Source: an uncultured Opitutia bacterium | GTDB taxonomy: Bacteria > Verrucomicrobiota > Verrucomicrobiia > Opitutales > Opitutaceae | Length of the DNA: 64,000 nt | Reading direction: 5' to 3' | Assembly: GCA_903855985.1 (NCBI GenBank) | Contig: CAIOAO010000014.1 | Coordinates: 1 to 64,000, forward strand | Shown: piece after piece, positions 520 through 24,419 of the stretch | How the letters are laid out: every line of letters starts with the position of its first letter | Numbering within the stretch: the stretch's first letter is position 1 | Translations under genes and position numbers: made by a program | The notes under the pieces: model-generated | Told to the model about the DNA's origin: nothing | Database searches by the model: none | The model's input: only the letters and a program-made list of their open reading frames with translations

Positions 520-1284
520 TTACCAGCTCCCTCCCGCGCCGCCGCCGCCGAAGCTGCCGCCACCGCCGGAGAAACTTCCGCCACCACCGCCACCGGAAGA
601 GCCGCCGCCACCACCCCAGCCGCCACCGGGGATGAAGATGGTCCGGCCATTTCGGCCGTAAACGGCGCTGCCACGGGCGCGCCGGATCAGGACGGAAAAA
701 CCAATGAAGACGACAAACAACAGGATGATGACGGGCAGGGGCAGGTTGCCGGAATTGCCGCGCCGGTCGGCCACACTGCGGCCGGTGCCTTTGTATTCGC
801 CGCGTGTGGCAGCGATCATTGCGTGCACGCCGGCGGTCACTCCACCGGCGTAGTCGCCTGTGCGGAATTTCGGGGTGATTTCGTTCGCGATGATCTGCTG
901 GCAGAGTGCGTCGGGCAGCACGCCCTCGAGCCCATAGCCGACCTGGAGGTAGAGCTTGTGGTCCGAGCTGAAGATGAAGAGGACGGCGCCGTTCTTTTTG
1001 TCCTTCAGCCCGACGCCCCAGGACTGGGCGACGCGCACGGTGTAGTCCTCGATGGCGGAGTCCGACGCCATATGCGGATAGATCGCGACGACAAGCTGGT
1101 TGGAGGTATCGCGCTCGAACTGGGTGAGCTCGGCGTCGAGGGCCTGCACCGTGCCGGCGGGGACGATGCCGGCGTAGTCGTTGAAGTGATTGCGCGGGGC
1201 GGGCGGGATGACCTCGGCGGCGGGCAGGCCCAGGCTGCCCAGCAGCCAGGCGCCGAGCAGAGGAAGCAGCACGCGCCAGCGCAT
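520..1284 (-). CDS. TPM domain membrane protein, YgcG family (254 aa)
   Basis: A signal peptide (residues 1-23, ending near PAAE) is followed by an exported TPM domain (about 30-160), one transmembrane helix around residues 180-200 (LPVIILLFVVFIGFSVLI), and a C-terminal tail that is almost pure glycine with a few serines, ending GGSW. This is the standard architecture of YgcG/TPM proteins: domain outside, anchor, Gly-rich cytoplasmic tail. It sits between lemA (28 bp upstream) and the second TPM gene (4 bp downstream), so the three are almost certainly cotranscribed. Function is inferred from family only. Confidence 0.9.
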   Translation of the reverse strand: MRWRVLLPLLGAWLLGSLGLPAAEVIPPAPRNHFNDYAGIVPAGTVQALDAELTQFERDTSNQLVVAIYPHMASDSAIEDYTVRVAQSWGVGLKDKKNGAVLFIFSSDHKLYLQVGYGLEGVLPDALCQQIIANEITPKFRTGDYAGGVTAGVHAMIAATRGEYKGTGRSVADRRGNSGNLPLPVIILLFVVFIGFSVLIRRARGSAVYGRNGRTIFIPGGGWGGGGGSSGGGGGGSFSGGGGSFGGGGAGGSW

Positions 1285-3468: not shown

Positions 3469-4647
3469 ATGATGACCTCCAAGCAACGGTTTCTCACGAC
3501 CCTGGCCGGCGGTCGGCCGGACCGGCTGCCCGTCACCACCCACTGGGTGCCGGGTTATTTCCTGCAGAACGTCGTGCAGCTGGCGGAGCAGGATTTTTAT
3601 GACCGCTTCGGGTTGGACCCGATCCTCTACCTGGCGCCGCACCTGCCCGACCCCGCCCTCGGCCAGTACCATGACCCGGACCAGGGGCAGATTGGGTTTC
3701 TGGAGAGCCGTCGCGTGGCCAGCGACCAGTGGCGGGTGCGCAGCGAGAAGATCTCCGGCCGCCAGTACCCGGCCACCCGCTGGAGCTTTGTCACCCCCAA
3801 GGGCACGCTGAGCATGGTGCTGGAATCCGACCGCTACAGCGCGTGGGTGGTCGAGCCGCTGGTAAAGGAACGGCGCGATATCGATCTCATCGGCGAATAT
3901 TGCACCGCCCCGCTGTGCGACGTCGCGACCGTCAACCGCGCGGCCGAACAGTTTGGCGAGCGCGGCCTGGTGCGGTCGTATGTCTGCTGCTTCGACATCT
4001 TCGGCCAGCCGGGCACGTGGCAGGACGCCACGTGCCTCGCGGGCACCGAGGAGATGATCATGGCGACGTTCGACGATCCGGCCTGGGTGCACGAGTTCCT
4101 CGGCATCCTGCAGCGGCGGAAGAAAACCCACCTCGATTCCATGGCGGGGGCGCGCTTCGACCTGCTCGAGCTGGGCGGCGGCAGCGCGTCATCGTCGGTC
4201 ATCTCCCCGAAAATCTTCGACGAGTTCGTCGCCCCCTACGACGCGGAGCTGATTCGCATCGCCCACCAGCGCGGCCAGCGCATCGCCTATCACACCTGCG
4301 GCGGGATGATGCCGCTGCTCGAGCGCATCGCCGCCATGAAACCCGACGCCATGGAGACGTTCACGCCGCCGGCCATGGGCGGCGACGCCGACCTGGCCGA
4401 GGCGCGCCGGCGGATTCCGCGCGACATCTGCATGATCGGCGGATTTGACCAGTATCACAATTTCGTCGGTTGCAGCCCGGAGGAGACCCGGCGGGAGGTG
4501 CGGCGGTGTTTTGACGCGGCCGGACGCGACGGCGGTTACATCCTGTGTCCCTCGGACCAGTTCTTCGCGGCGGACACCCGCCTGCTCGAGGCCTTCGCGG
4601 ACGAGGCGCGCCACTGCACCTACGAGGAGAACGCGGTGCCGGCCTAG
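3469..4647 (+). CDS. Uroporphyrinogen decarboxylase-like protein (392 aa)
   Basis: A URO-D superfamily TIM barrel: N-terminal SKQRFLTTLAGGRPDRLPV, the central LLELGGGSASSSVISPKIFDEFVAPY block, the YHTCGGMMPLLERI strand and the C-terminal GGYILCPSDQF. The N-terminal substrate-binding region of true HemE is not preserved and no haem genes are near, so this belongs to the broad methyltransferase/URO-D-like group (MtaA/CmuA relatives and uncharacterised proteins), not porphyrin synthesis. Cys and His in the HTCGG strand could bind a metal, as in cobalamin or methanol MtaA-type enzymes. It converges with a second URO-D-like gene and their stop codons overlap. Confidence 0.88.
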   Translation: MMTSKQRFLTTLAGGRPDRLPVTTHWVPGYFLQNVVQLAEQDFYDRFGLDPILYLAPHLPDPALGQYHDPDQGQIGFLESRRVASDQWRVRSEKISGRQYPATRWSFVTPKGTLSMVLESDRYSAWVVEPLVKERRDIDLIGEYCTAPLCDVATVNRAAEQFGERGLVRSYVCCFDIFGQPGTWQDATCLAGTEEMIMATFDDPAWVHEFLGILQRRKKTHLDSMAGARFDLLELGGGSASSSVISPKIFDEFVAPYDAELIRIAHQRGQRIAYHTCGGMMPLLERIAAMKPDAMETFTPPAMGGDADLAEARRRIPRDICMIGGFDQYHNFVGCSPEETRREVRRCFDAAGRDGGYILCPSDQFFAADTRLLEAFADEARHCTYEENAVPA

Positions 4648-19283: not shown

Positions 19284-20501
19284 ATGCCCTACACTGAAGA
19301 CCGCTCCACCTGGTTCGAAGGGCAGGGGCTTTGGCAGCACGTCCCGGCGAGCGACTGGCAGGACTGGACATGGCAGCTGAAGAACCGGATCACCAGCGTC
19401 GCCCAGCTCGAGCAGTTCATGACGCTGACGCCGGACGAGAAGGCCGGGTGCTACTTCGCCGACAAGAAGCTCTCGCTGGCGATCACGCCGTATTTTTTCA
19501 ACCTGATCGACCGCAACGACCCGGACTGCCCGCTCCGCAAGCAGGTCATCCCGCGGTCGGGGGAGACGCAGCTCGCGGCCGAGGAGCAGCTCGATTCGCT
19601 GGGCGAGGACGAGCATTCGCCGGTGCCCGGGTTGGTGCACCGCTATCCGGACCGCGTGCTGTTCCTGGTGACGGACCGGTGCGCGTCGTATTGCCGCTAC
19701 TGCACGCGGAGCCGCCTCGTCTCCAACGCGCAGGACTATAATTTTCACCCGGAATACGAGCAGGCGCTCCGCTACATTGAGGGCCATCCCGAGGTGCGCG
19801 ATGTGCTGCTGTCGGGCGGGGACCCGCTGCTGCTCTCGGACAAAAAGCTCGAGCACCTGATCAGCCGGCTGCGCGCGATCAAGCACGTGGAGTTCATCCG
19901 CATCGGCTCGCGCATCCCGGTGTTCCTGCCGCAGCGCATCACGCCGGAGCTCTGCGAGATCTTCAAAAAGTACGGGCCGGTCTGGATGAGCATCCACGTC
20001 AACCACCCGAAGGAGTGCACCGCGGAGCTGAAGGCCGCGTGCGAGCGGCTGTCGTTCGCCGGTGTGCCGCTCGGCAACCAGAGCGTGCTGCTCAAGGGCG
20101 TGAATGATGACGCCGACGTGATGAAGGCCCTCGTCCACCGCTTGCTGCGGATGCGCGTGCGGCCGTATTACCTCTACCAGATGGACCTCATCACGGGAGG
20201 CGCGCACTTCAAGGTGGATGTCCGCAAGGGCATCGAGATCATCCGGGCGCTGCGCGGCCACACGACCGGCTATGCGGTGCCGCAGTACGTCATCGATGCC
20301 CCCGGCGGCGGCGGCAAGGTGCCGGTGAACCCCGACTACGTCGAAAGCATCACCGACGACGAGGTGGTGTTCCGCAATTATGAGGGCCAGCGCTTTGTGT
20401 ATCCGCTCAAGAGCACGCCGGTGCCGGACCAGGCCCCGGCCGACGTAGTGGCGACCGAGAAGGTGCAGGCGGAGCGGTCCGCGGCCACCGGCCAGCCGTA
20501 A
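19284..20501 (+). CDS. kamA: Lysine 2,3-aminomutase (radical SAM, PLP)
   Basis: A 405-residue KamA-family enzyme. The radical-SAM cluster motif is Cys133-xxx-Cys137-xx-Cys140 (DRCASYCRYCTRSR). The PLP lysine is Lys345 in DAPGGGGKVPV, and Asp338 of the same motif plus the Asp in LYQMDLI correspond to the two lysine-binding aspartates of the clostridial enzyme. Full length, including the C-terminal oligomerisation part absent from the EF-P enzyme EpmB. It makes L-beta-lysine. No acetyltransferase (ablB) for the osmolyte N-acetyl-beta-lysine is next to it, so the fate of beta-lysine is open. Confidence 0.9.
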   Translation: MPYTEDRSTWFEGQGLWQHVPASDWQDWTWQLKNRITSVAQLEQFMTLTPDEKAGCYFADKKLSLAITPYFFNLIDRNDPDCPLRKQVIPRSGETQLAAEEQLDSLGEDEHSPVPGLVHRYPDRVLFLVTDRCASYCRYCTRSRLVSNAQDYNFHPEYEQALRYIEGHPEVRDVLLSGGDPLLLSDKKLEHLISRLRAIKHVEFIRIGSRIPVFLPQRITPELCEIFKKYGPVWMSIHVNHPKECTAELKAACERLSFAGVPLGNQSVLLKGVNDDADVMKALVHRLLRMRVRPYYLYQMDLITGGAHFKVDVRKGIEIIRALRGHTTGYAVPQYVIDAPGGGGKVPVNPDYVESITDDEVVFRNYEGQRFVYPLKSTPVPDQAPADVVATEKVQAERSAATGQP

Positions 20502-20655: not shown

Positions 20656-21399
20656 TCATTCGAGCGAGAACGTCGCGCTGACGGTGGTGGTGATGGTTTT
20701 CTCGAACGAGGAGTTGTCATTGTTGCCCTCCCAGCTCGTCGCGCTCGAGTACAGCGGGTTGATCTGCACGACACCCATGCGGGCGGTGCGCAGCTCCTTG
20801 ATTTTGCGGCCGCCCTGGCCGGCGATCTGCTCGGCCCGGGCCCGGGCGTCCTTCGTCGCCTCGGCCATCATCTCAATCTTCGCCTCGCTCGCCTTGGTGT
20901 AGATGAACTCGAGTCCTTCGGATACGAGTGCGATGCCCTGTTCCAGGAGCACGGCGGACTCGGTGCCCAGGCGCGTGGTGGTCGCGATGTCGGCCGACTT
21001 TATCTCAATGCGCTGGCTGAGCCGGTAGCCGATGCGCCTCGTCACGGTTTCATCATCGTCGCCTTTCGCTCGCGCCGTGATCTCGCGGATCTGCACCGGC
21101 AGAAGGGTGAATTCCTTCACGCCCTTCGCGCGCAGGAAGGCGTCCACCTGCACCAGGGCGGCCTTGAGTTTTTCGTGGGCCGAAAGGAGCGACTCATCGT
21201 CCACGCCGAAGCTGGCGCGCCAGACCACGAGATCGGACTGGACGTTTTTTCGCGCGGAGCCGGTCACGTCAATGACCTGGGATTCGTGCAGACGGGTCCA
21301 GGTGCGGGTGAACACGATGGAGGCGAAACAGAGGCCAGCGGCGAGAAACAGGCCTGCGAGGAGGCCGAACAGATGCGGACGGGAGGAGTGGTTTTCCAT
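20656..21399 (-). CDS. SIMPL domain protein (DUF541), membrane-anchored
   Basis: A 247-residue protein with an N-terminal hydrophobic segment (LFGLLAGLFLAAGLCFASIVF, residues about 10-30) and a SIMPL/DUF541 domain: VIDVTGSARKNVQSDLVVWRASF, LVQVDAFLRAKGVK, YRLSQRIEIKSADI and AKIEMMAEATKDARARAEQIA near residue 185. This last helix is the family signature. Homologues are periplasmic (E. coli YggE) and linked to oxidative stress. Preceded on its own strand by an AT-rich region (21470-21545). Confidence 0.88.
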   Translation of the reverse strand: MENHSSRPHLFGLLAGLFLAAGLCFASIVFTRTWTRLHESQVIDVTGSARKNVQSDLVVWRASFGVDDESLLSAHEKLKAALVQVDAFLRAKGVKEFTLLPVQIREITARAKGDDDETVTRRIGYRLSQRIEIKSADIATTTRLGTESAVLLEQGIALVSEGLEFIYTKASEAKIEMMAEATKDARARAEQIAGQGGRKIKELRTARMGVVQINPLYSSATSWEGNNDNSSFEKTITTTVSATFSLE

Positions 21400-21580
21400 G
21401 GGAAATTGGGCTCATCCAGCCCTCCGCCTGATGCGCCAAATTGTCCAATCCAAGTCATTCACAATCCTGTAATTGCTATCAAACAACGGGTTATGTAATA
21501 CGATAGTTATTCACAAAAAACCGGACTTTTTTTGAGCATTTCGCGGGGTCCCCCGTCTATCCCTATGTAGTCAGATACTG

Positions 21581-21653
21581 TTTGTAGTTCTTACGGTTTG
21601 CTTGGTGTTAGGTCACTCGAGCCGCTCCCGCAAGGGGGCGGCTCTTGTGTTTC
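21581..21653 (+). ncRNA. Candidate small RNA element, copy 1
   Basis: A 72-nt element almost identical to the one at 21773-21843. The first 35 nt (TTTGTAGTTCTTACGG and following) differ at one position. It ends in a hairpin at 21619-21644: an 11-bp stem GAGCCGCTCCC/GGGGGCGGCTC with one G-U pair, capped by a GCAA tetraloop, followed by TTGTGTTT, a plausible intrinsic terminator. No ORF of note. The repeated unit, the conserved 5' block and the terminator are visible; that it is transcribed is inference. Confidence 0.5.
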
Positions 21654-21772
21654 CGGACCAGGCGGGTCGGGCGGAAAAAGACCGCAAAAGATTTTTGAAG
21701 GTTTTTGAACGTTATGCGCCCGCGCGCATCTACCTCGGTGTAGTCAACATCGTCCTGGTAAGACGGTGCGTG

Positions 21773-21843
21773 TTTGTAGTTCTTACGGTTTGTTTGGTGT
21801 TAGGTCAAAGAGCCGCCCTGCAAGGGGCGGCTCTTGTGTTTTC
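21773..21843 (+). ncRNA. Candidate small RNA element, copy 2
   Basis: The second copy of the 70-nt element. The hairpin at 21810-21833 has a 10-bp stem GAGCCGCCCT/GGGGCGGCTC, again with a GCAA loop, then TTGTGTTTT. The stem differs from copy 1 by length and sequence while pairing is kept, which argues for selection on structure. It lies 110 bp before the TPP riboswitch. Confidence 0.5.
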
Positions 21844-21951
21844 CGGGTATGGCTAGCGCGGCGAGCCGCCTTCGTCCCGCTTCCGCGGGACTACGTCGGG
21901 CCAAGAAGATTGGCTTGCGCTGCTCCCTGCGGCGCGCTTTCTCCGGTCTTG

Positions 21952-22050
21952 CCTGTAGGGGTGCCCTCCGCGGAGGGCTGAGATTGCGGTGCGCTCGACC
22001 GCTCGACCCTTCGAACCTGAACGGATCATGCCGACGAAGGAAACAGCAGG
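21952..22050 (+). promoter_or_regulatory. TPP riboswitch (THI element)
   Basis: All conserved blocks are present in order: GGGGTGCC, GGCTGAGA, ACCCTTCGAACCTGA, and the 3' ATCATGCCGACGAAGGAA. P1 can form between CCTGT (21952-) and ACAG.AGG (22043-22050). It lies 75 nt upstream of the TonB receptor ATG on the same strand. Known function: binding of thiamin pyrophosphate switches off downstream expression. Downstream pairings that could serve as the expression platform are discussed in the findings. Confidence 0.95.
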
Positions 22051-22124
22051 CGCTGTCAGCGCCGAGGGGCAGACAACGCCGCTTTCGTCGGGAGTCCGGT
22101 TTGGGGCAGGTAACACCACCTCCC

Positions 22125-24419
22125 ATGAAACTCCCGGCCCGACTCCTTCTCCTCGCCTCCAGCGCGATTTTCCTGGCTGACGCCAGTGCTCAGCCGGCGG
22201 CGGACATCCCGGCCCTGGCCCGCTTCACCGTCACCGGCGTGCCGGTCGAGCAGTCGGTCAACCCGCTCACGCGCCAGACTTCGTCCGTGATGGGCGAGGC
22301 GCGCGACCCGCTCGATACGCCGCGCGGCGTGAGCACGATCACGACGGCGCTGTTCAACGAGCGGCAGATCCACGGGGTGCAGGAAATCCTGCTCTATTCG
22401 CCGAGCGCGTATGTCGGCGCGGCGTACGGCAACATCACGATGCCGAACCTGCGCGGCGACCTCGCGGAAACCTACCTCAACGGCCAGCGGCTCAGCTACA
22501 ATTACTACGGGTATTTCCCGTCGTTCAACGGCGTCGAGGCCGTGGATCTCGTCCGCGGCCCGGGCTCCGCGGTGTTTGGCGCGGGCTATTTCACCGGCGG
22601 CTACGTGAACTACGTCACGAAGCAGCCGAAGTTTTCCGGACCGGAGACGACCGTGACGACGCGACTCGGCACGTGGGCGCCGGGACAGGCCTCATTTCTC
22701 AACGGCTCGGTGCAAATCGACACGACCGCGCCGGTCAACGACCACCTTGCATGGCGCGTGAGCTATGAAGCAAAGGGCGGCGACACGTTCTTCCGCAAGA
22801 ATGACGCCCCGGACAGCCGGCAGGATATTTTTGCCGCGGTCACCTGGAAGCCCGGCGCGGCGACCACGCTGGATTTCAGCGCGCAGTATTTCTGGCAGAA
22901 CCCGCCGGAGACGCTCGGCGTCAACCGCGTCAACCAGGACCTCATCTGGCACGGGCTCTATTACACCGGCGCATCCGCCGACAATAACCCGTTCCCCGGC
23001 CCGATTCCCGCGACCGGGGTGGTGCAGCTGCCGTGGGAGGCGTCGCTCTTCTCGAAGGGGGATTTCTCCAACGCCAACGTCGTGCGCACGCAGCTCATCG
23101 CCACGCACGTGTTCTCCCCGGCGCTGACCCTCGTGAACCGCACGCTGTTCGAGTACGTGAACCGCCGCCGGTTCCAGCAGTTCGAGTACGCGGAGTACGT
23201 CACCCAGCACACCTTCGAGAACCGCACGGAGCTGCACCTCGACTGGAGCGCCGCCGCGCTGCCGTCGACGGCGGTCGCGGGCTTTACCGTCCGCTATGCG
23301 CACACGCTCAGCTACGAGAACTATTTCAACGAATACATCTACAACTTCGACCTGACCGACCCGACGCGGGTCTTCAACGAGGCGGAGCAATACCCGAACT
23401 CATATTATCCCGGCATTGCCGGGCCCGGGGGCCGGCCGTTTTTCCCGGCGGCGTGGGGCAGCCCGGAGACGGACAACAGCACGCTCTGGAATCCCGCGGC
23501 GTTCTGGCAGCACGAGGTTAAATTTTCCTCACAGCTCTCGTTCATCGCGGGCCTGCGCGGCGACCTGTACGTGGGCGACGCCCGCGACCCGCTGCCGCCG
23601 GATGGCACGACGCCGTGGCACGATCACGCCAACGTCGGCACGGTTTCACCGACGGCCAACCTGGTCTTCCGTCCCACGCCAACCTCGTCGCTCTATGCGA
23701 CCTACCAGCGCATCCGCGCGGTCACGGGCAACCTCGCCGGCGGCGGATTGATCCTCACGGATCGCGGCGACGGCACGGGCGGATTGAACCGCGATGACTT
23801 CCGCAACCGCAGCGATCTCGCTGAGCTCGGCGCGAAGTTTTCGCTCCTGGACCACCAGTTGTACGCGGCGGCGACGCTGTTTGACCAGCGGCGGACGAAG
23901 ATCGAGGTCGGCGGTGAGCACAGCGACATCCTGATCCGCGGTCTGGAGTTGGAGGCGGTTTACCAGCCCAACACGCAGTTCAACGCCACGGCCAACGCGA
24001 CGTTCCAGGACGGCCACTACGTGGACTCGTCCCCATTTCAATTGGGCGGCCGGTCGATCTACGAAGCGTATGCGCTGGGCCGCGGGCCCGGCGGACTCGG
24101 CACGGGCACGGCGGGATATGATCCCTATGCGAACCAGGTACCGGCGGGAGATTGGGCGCTGCTCGGTTTTTCCAAGGTCATGCTCAACGGCAGTGTGCGT
24201 TACCGGCTGGAGAGCGGGTTTGGGGCCGGGCTCAATGCGCAGTGGCAGAGCTGGCAGCGCGGCAACCTCGACAACCAGTGGCACCTCCCCGCGCAGTACA
24301 CGCTCAACGGCTCGCTCTTCTACGAGGCGAAGCGCTGGTCGGCCAACCTCGACCTCCTCAACCTCACCGGCCAGCGCAACTGGATCCACAACGGTGATGC
24401 CTACACCCCAGTGAGCTGA
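22125..24419 (+). CDS. TonB-dependent receptor under TPP control; C-terminus frameshifted
   Basis: A 764-residue outer-membrane receptor: signal peptide (MKLPARLLLLASSAIFLADASA), plug domain (TPRGVSTITTALFNERQI, MPNLRGDLAETYLNGQRL, DLVRGPGSAVFGAGYFTGGYVNYVTK), then a 22-strand barrel. The frame stops after NGDAYTPVS. In the next frame, from about 24410, the text SELIFPELPFRLEGYFKFKF runs to a stop at 24470-24472, which is the usual last strand with terminal Phe. One missing C in the run 24406-24409 would restore it (782 aa, end 24472). The riboswitch implies import of thiamin or a precursor through the outer membrane. Confidence 0.9.
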   Translation: MKLPARLLLLASSAIFLADASAQPAADIPALARFTVTGVPVEQSVNPLTRQTSSVMGEARDPLDTPRGVSTITTALFNERQIHGVQEILLYSPSAYVGAAYGNITMPNLRGDLAETYLNGQRLSYNYYGYFPSFNGVEAVDLVRGPGSAVFGAGYFTGGYVNYVTKQPKFSGPETTVTTRLGTWAPGQASFLNGSVQIDTTAPVNDHLAWRVSYEAKGGDTFFRKNDAPDSRQDIFAAVTWKPGAATTLDFSAQYFWQNPPETLGVNRVNQDLIWHGLYYTGASADNNPFPGPIPATGVVQLPWEASLFSKGDFSNANVVRTQLIATHVFSPALTLVNRTLFEYVNRRRFQQFEYAEYVTQHTFENRTELHLDWSAAALPSTAVAGFTVRYAHTLSYENYFNEYIYNFDLTDPTRVFNEAEQYPNSYYPGIAGPGGRPFFPAAWGSPETDNSTLWNPAAFWQHEVKFSSQLSFIAGLRGDLYVGDARDPLPPDGTTPWHDHANVGTVSPTANLVFRPTPTSSLYATYQRIRAVTGNLAGGGLILTDRGDGTGGLNRDDFRNRSDLAELGAKFSLLDHQLYAAATLFDQRRTKIEVGGEHSDILIRGLELEAVYQPNTQFNATANATFQDGHYVDSSPFQLGGRSIYEAYALGRGPGGLGTGTAGYDPYANQVPAGDWALLGFSKVMLNGSVRYRLESGFGAGLNAQWQSWQRGNLDNQWHLPAQYTLNGSLFYEAKRWSANLDLLNLTGQRNWIHNGDAYTPVS

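Follow-up and report, generated by a model that had tools for sequence, protein, structure and literature searches.

The OmrA/OmrB, Qrr and CcsR RNAs are tandem or sibling stress sRNAs with their own promoters. Region R1 of GcvB is a conserved G/U-rich linker beside hairpins, and RybB and MicA are Sigma-E-dependent sRNAs. In a 2022 survey of Rfam, 8 distinct sRNAs are counted for the entire Planctomycetes-Verrucomicrobia-Chlamydiae group, against 345 for Proteobacteria (PMC9029176). The window considered here, a stretch of 64,000 nucleotides from an uncultured Opitutia bacterium of the Opitutaceae, carries two tandem elements. Very probably both are genes for the same small RNA, one that had not been described before. 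The features of the locus are as follows.

19284-20501, plus strand: kamA-family radical SAM gene, lysine 2,3-aminomutase-like (TIGR00238 and LAM_C above cut-offs)
20656-21399, minus strand: SIMPL-domain gene (PF04402, E 3.8e-23), between the kamA-family gene and the sRNA genes
21532-21561, plus strand: promoter of copy 1, TTGAGCATTT (21532-21541), 12 nt, CGTCTATC (21554-21561); 0 mismatches to the family pattern
21565-21652, plus strand: sRNA copy 1, short form without 5' hairpin; the promoter predicts the 5' end, give or take a few nt
21579-21615, plus strand: conserved block of copy 1, with the invariant core GGTTTGCTTGGTGTTAGGT at 21595-21613
21619-21652, plus strand: terminator hairpin and T-rich tail of copy 1, from folding and covariation
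21705-21734, plus strand: promoter of copy 2, TTGAACGTTA (21705-21714), 12 nt, CATCTACC (21727-21734); 1 mismatch
21738-21843, plus strand: sRNA copy 2, long form (5' hairpin present); the promoter predicts the 5' end here too
21748-21768, plus strand: 5' hairpin of copy 2, CATCGTC...GACGGTG, from the covariation of helix 1
21771-21807, plus strand: conserved block of copy 2; its core (21787-21805) carries a single C-to-T change
21808-21842, plus strand: terminator hairpin and T-rich tail of copy 2, from folding
21947-22059: TPP riboswitch, beginning 547 bp past the SIMPL gene
22125-24419: TonB-dependent receptor gene, with its ATG at 22125, 725 bp from the SIMPL gene

Each unit is ordered, from 5' to 3', as promoter, GTAGTC, hairpin (long form only), near-invariant 36-nt block and terminator, and the predicted RNAs are about 88 nt (copy 1) and about 105 nt (copy 2) long. 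A covariance model built from 42 long-form copies, with a match threshold of E 0.001, matches copy 1 at 21564-21661 (86.3 bits, E 6.5e-18) and copy 2 at 21737-21850 (121 bits, E 1.1e-26). The upstream member was the short form in all nine tandems of the genus that were read. A preliminary description of this DNA had pointed to tandem near-identical elements with a shared 5' block, and they are indeed a 37-nt direct repeat (21579-21615 and 21771-21807) with 97% identity and one mismatch. Its estimate of about 70 nt per element was too short, as the upstream promoters and the 5' hairpin of copy 2 had been missed. The terminator stem-loop of copy 1, GAGCCGCTCCC-GCAA-GGGGGCGGCTC (21619-21644), has the 11 pairs given there, while that of copy 2, AAGAGCCGCCCT-GCAA-GGGGCGGCTCTT (21808-21835), has 12, two more than had been counted. 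The GCAA loop is kept in both window copies, as had been noted, but is not a feature of the family, in which terminator loops vary (GAAA in L007, a longer loop in L023). The T-rich tails reported after the hairpins are present in both copies, though interrupted; each copy has the hairpin of an intrinsic terminator with a short and broken U tail. The gap in which the elements lie has the 725 bp stated, but it ends at the receptor ATG and not at the riboswitch. That riboswitch lies immediately 5' of the TonB-dependent receptor gene, an arrangement which suggests that thiamine or one of its precursors is imported.

Both copies are preceded by a bipartite promoter of their own, TTGARCGTTT-N12-CGTCTAYC. 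In a first set of copies, a minus-10-like box was recognised in 53 of 55, with the upstream box exactly 22 nt earlier in 49 of those 53. The boxes were picked after inspection of copies. In 124 distinct copies from named genomes, the profile reads T-T-G-A-R-C-G-T-T-T, 12 nearly patternless nucleotides, and C-G-T-C-T-A-T-C. The spacing of the boxes is exactly 22 nt in 111 of these 124 copies, and 121 score at least 12 of 15, compared with 15 of 454 control stretches from positions 400-700 nt distant. A scan for sigma-70 promoters gave no match. The sequence has the features of an ECF promoter, with a GAAC-like minus-35 box and a CGTC minus-10 box about 16 nt apart, measured from the GAAC/GAGC tetramer to the CGTC box. 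ECF promoters, for example those of group ECF41, have a minus-10 CGTC and a spacer of 16 ± 1 bp; both traits are shared with the sRNA promoter, whereas the minus-35 box is TTGARCGTTT here and not the TGTCACA given for ECF41 (PMC3426412). From the shape of the promoter, we infer that the sigma factor reading it is of the ECF type.

The promoter pattern was also sought throughout 12 genomes of the window's genus. All 19 perfect matches are promoters of this sRNA. With up to two mismatches allowed, the pattern occurs at 39 places, 24 of which are this sRNA; the remaining 15 are little above the 10 obtained with a reversed control pattern. Two of the 15, from two genomes of the genus (L080 1500-1620, plus strand, and L084 about 935-1060, minus strand), consist of the promoter, GTTTGTAGTTTC and a terminator, with the core absent, and these RNAs are apparent paralogues under the same promoter as the sRNA. 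In two genomes of the genus (L085 967-1265, plus strand, and L087, minus strand), a promoter-like match with 2 mismatches stands 5' of a gene for a 75-aa putative membrane protein, MQYLDSIITAVKK..., which has no Pfam match. This gene is possibly a second one read by the same sigma factor, or else a chance occurrence.

Both window RNAs fold better than 200 of 200 dinucleotide shuffles (z -3.45 for copy 1 and -3.58 for copy 2). The structure tested for covariation was set by hand from the sequences. In a MAFFT alignment of 42 copies, two-sided changes occur in 15 of the 19 pairs, and 86.9% of cells are paired, against 38-59% in slid controls. A second alignment, of 77 copies drawn from 70 of 118 named loci, has two-sided changes in 19 of 19 pairs and 91.0% of cells paired, against 39-61% in slid controls, and was fitted to the covariance model and so biased towards it. 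Helix 1, the 5' hairpin, has two-sided changes in 7 of its 7 pairs, and the terminator hairpin covaries too. Unconstrained RNAalifold on the 42-copy alignment returned only the core of the terminator stem and a doubtful helix in the block, missing the 5' hairpin. The core is about 43% unpaired on average by predicted folding of 72 copies.

The covariance model was also used to search relatives, as the preliminary description had proposed, and it matches 192 of 252 Opitutaceae genomes, in 35 of 49 genera, leaving 60 of the 252 without a match at E 0.001. Within the window's genus, 10 of 12 genomes have two or three matches each. Outside the family the element nearly disappears: matches were obtained in 23 of 286 genomes of a class sample, 22 of them Opitutaceae, and in 22 of 288 genomes of a phylum sample, 21 of them Opitutaceae. 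The single exception in both samples is one genome from another family of the order (G092:C101:27539-27639, minus strand), whose weak match (32.4 bits, E 4.5e-4) may be due to chance or else mark a diverged relative. With copy 2 as the blastn query, 50 of 95 genomes, the window's own included, gave a match at E ≤0.1; the matches at E <1e-5 are all in Opitutaceae, and the weak rows include chance matches that resemble terminators. The 19-nt core occurs in at least 118 stretches of named genomes, and of the 80 core matches listed all but one carry titles such as Opitutae, Opitutaceae and Verrucomicrobia, including Opitutus, Lacunisphaera, Rariglobus and Ereboglobus. Core matches in a Zixibacteria record (L163) and in viral contigs (L420-L422) were set aside as chance, the former with no other part of the element around the core and the latter with the element absent there. 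A search of 72,556 plasmid records with copy 2 gave no match. The preliminary description had recognised no known RNA class, and this stands: Rfam 15 returned nothing at the gathering threshold on the element, and within 21400-21940 only sub-threshold matches (best E 0.24). The titles and abstract openings of the Opitutaceae and Verrucomicrobia RNA literature, in which subscription journals were thinly covered, hold no description of this sRNA.

The neighbourhood of the genes bears on whether they are independent genes at all. Among 94 loci with at least 1500 nt upstream, drawn from 118 named loci collected (at least 118 exist), 65 have a kamA-family gene upstream in the same orientation, which makes it the commonest and most constant neighbour of the sRNA genes; the kamA-family gene of the window scores below the cut-off of the equivalog model for AblA (lysine 2,3-aminomutase). 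Because of this synteny, the sRNA is taken to be inherited as a gene and not as a scattered repeat. The same synteny, with a median of 161 nt from the kamA-family gene to the approximate sRNA 5' end in the 46 loci without a SIMPL gene, could indicate a 3'-UTR element of that gene, serving as its terminator or stabiliser or yielding a processed sRNA. This interpretation is very unlikely, since a separate promoter is conserved at fixed spacing, 29 of the 94 loci have no kamA-family gene there, and in the window as well as in 19 of the 65 loci a SIMPL gene on the opposite strand intervenes.

A mobile or REP-like repeat with a terminator-like hairpin might likewise occur as tandem duplicates, and two genomes do have 4 and 5 matches, while the other matched genomes listed have one to three each. 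The tandem cores lie 163-384 nt apart, with no locus having copies on both strands, and this arrangement, together with the kamA-family synteny, the fixed promoter spacing and the covarying helices, makes a mobile repeat scarcely credible. Repeat-like scatter and a lack of compensatory changes, which the preliminary description had named as grounds against its proposal, were not what was found: covariation and synteny were both seen.

The suggestion in the same description of a repeated leader or attenuator serving the receptor fared less well. In the window the copies do sit just 5' of the TPP riboswitch and the receptor, as a cis leader of either would; each copy, however, closes with its own terminator ahead of the riboswitch, and of the 373 flanking proteins called in 118 loci (by crude ORF calls) only 35 are receptor-like. 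The window receptor also has, 14 nt 5' of its ATG, the sequence TAACACCA, which is complementary to 8 nt of the core. Among 26 receptor rows (23 at ≥60% identity, some with misplaced starts), this complement recurs in only one other, L153, where it lies across that gene's own start. The receptor mRNA was accordingly rejected as a local target, and a cis-acting leader is highly improbable.

Taken as an sRNA gene, the element has what is expected of a promoter-driven bacterial example, namely its own promoter at a fixed position and a terminator, while an open reading frame is not conserved. Read across block and terminator for 75 nt, the three frames stay free of stops in 75, 84 and 0 of 128 copies, and the locus thus likely codes no peptide. 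With a promoter and a terminator for each copy and with family-wide conservation and covariation, the proposal of two sRNAs in the preliminary description is borne out as far as sequence can do so, and the element can be regarded, with high confidence, as a genuine sRNA gene.

Less can be said about the partners of this RNA. Hfq (PF17209), the usual RNA chaperone, was detected in 0/12 genomes of the genus and 0/80 Opitutaceae genomes, while 5 of 14 controls matched; the Opitutaceae thus appear to be without Hfq, and an Hfq-dependent sRNA was rejected on these counts. A sponge of the CsrB/CsrC type was also rejected, as neither window copy contains the GGA motif of CsrA and no CsrA match was found in the window's own genome, while 4 of the 12 genus genomes have one. 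Complementary targets were sought in 2.4 Mb from three genomes with crude gene calls, at 30 receptor loci, and by one near-exact 19-mer search. The last, allowing up to 3 mismatches in 12 genomes, returned only the sRNA loci themselves and 3 scattered places. At 1504 translation starts (3 x 0.8 Mb), duplex energies were no better than those of 40 shuffled cores, and mid-gene control stretches pair at least as well as starts (their mean is unusable, some cells having no value). Nor did exact seeds of 6-9 nt occur more often than those of shuffled cores. Groups of orthologues fell within or near the range of the shuffles, the best mean energies being equalled by 3 to 25 of 40. One receptor pair (G015 and G209) stood about 2 SD beyond the shuffles by its weaker member, and for this reason TonB receptors, the sole gene class so treated, were tested for pairing with the core. 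In a post hoc subset of 18 receptor starts, 0 of 40 shuffles were as low. This signal was gone in 30 held-out receptor starts (-17.44 vs -17.40 ± 0.52 for shuffles, 87 of 200 as low), a test weakened by several starts that look miscalled, and the claim of receptors as a target class was dropped.

The G/U-rich core, nearly constant across genera, is compatible with an antisense seed as well as with a protein site. A block of 19-23 nt that hardly changes, yet for which these searches found no complementary target, could be a recognition site by which the RNA titrates or delivers an RNA-binding protein. A viral copy that keeps the block in an mRNA-like setting, with neither promoter nor U tract, points in the same direction. 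The obvious proteins do not fit, given the missing GGA motif, the missing CsrA of the window's own genome and the lack of an Hfq match in 80 of 80 genomes, and no candidate protein was found; a protein-binding role is therefore plausible but rather unlikely.

The viral copy lies in a 26-kb IMG/VR record, L212 (IMGVR_UViG_3300005529_000089), at 3967-4088 on the minus strand, where the sRNA block scores 46.1 bits. It is flanked by unrelated hairpins of its own, which replace those of the sRNA, and the element fits exactly between a 151-aa ORF, itself directly 3' of the major head protein gene, and the start codon of a 149-aa ORF. Neither ORF has a PHROG match. There is no host-type promoter in the 200 nt upstream of the block and no U tract after the second hairpin. 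Exact-pattern scans of IMG/VR yielded this as the one true case, and the L212 element had no match in 50,697 phage records. This single case may be a mimic or a processed RNA; if it is functional, the block itself would be worth hijacking.

We prefer the reading of a trans-acting sRNA. Its tandem paralogous genes would each be read from their own ECF-like alternative-sigma promoter, and each transcript would end at its own intrinsic terminator. The invariant G/U-rich core, ACGGUUUGCUUGGUGUUAGGUCA, directly 5' of the terminator stem, would recognise targets, most likely by pairing in trans, and independently of Hfq, with a single mRNA or a small number of them. The 5' hairpin, which covaries and is found in the long form only, would merely protect or position the core, because the short form lacks it. 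We infer the transcription of the sRNA, its action in trans and its base pairing. This reading as a whole (trans action, an ECF-like promoter and an invariant core recognising targets without Hfq) is reasonably probable, and base pairing with the core as antisense seed is slightly favoured.

A possible refinement concerns the 5' arm of the long form. In copy 2, AACAUCG of this arm (21746-21752) can pair with UGGUGUU of the core (21795-21801), replacing the arm's own hairpin partner, and this is kept in many relatives. The alternative helix, AGCAYYG/UGGUGUU, has 96.9% of cells paired over the 37 rows of 42 that are ungapped there, 30 of them complete, and the next best register reaches 68.7%. 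Of 109 long copies, 75 contain its motif, where shuffling of the 5' regions predicts 22.8, and the other 34 lack it; it is in none of 28 short copies, as cut without the last base. Another heptamer of the block is likewise over-represented (42 vs 12.3 expected), and the partition function favours the alternative helix in 18 of the 109 long copies and in 1 of the 28 short ones. Changes in the 5' arm are presumably mostly transitions, which the arm's own hairpin tolerates anyway. The alternative helix of arm and core is thus to be taken as a lead, and not as proven. A fuller version, in which an Hfq-free Opitutaceae sRNA has its core gated by a 5' arm toggling between its own hairpin and UGGUGUU, and a phage carries a mimic beside its head gene, is distinctly unlikely.

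As a family-wide sRNA whose core is nearly invariant, in bacteria where Hfq went undetected, the element offers a handle on RNA regulation in this group, and with the covariance model and promoter motif this can be put directly to the test in Opitutaceae that are in culture. Compared with OmrA/OmrB, Qrr and CcsR, the core here is G/U-rich, the Hfq gene was undetected and there is no Rfam match; like them, the locus has adjacent sibling genes, one shared conserved core and a terminator hairpin. Unlike GcvB, the sRNA is shorter and without an Rfam match, and it shows no excess complementarity to translation starts, those of TonB receptors having failed validation; a conserved G/U-rich linker adjoining hairpins is nevertheless what the two have in common, and by analogy with R1 it would suggest C/A-rich targets. 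No outer-membrane target is confirmed here, in contrast to RybB and MicA, with which it shares the form of a short sRNA under an ECF-type promoter (ECF here by promoter shape only). Judged from its sequence, the sRNA is a new family of a known kind of RNA, well supported as a gene.
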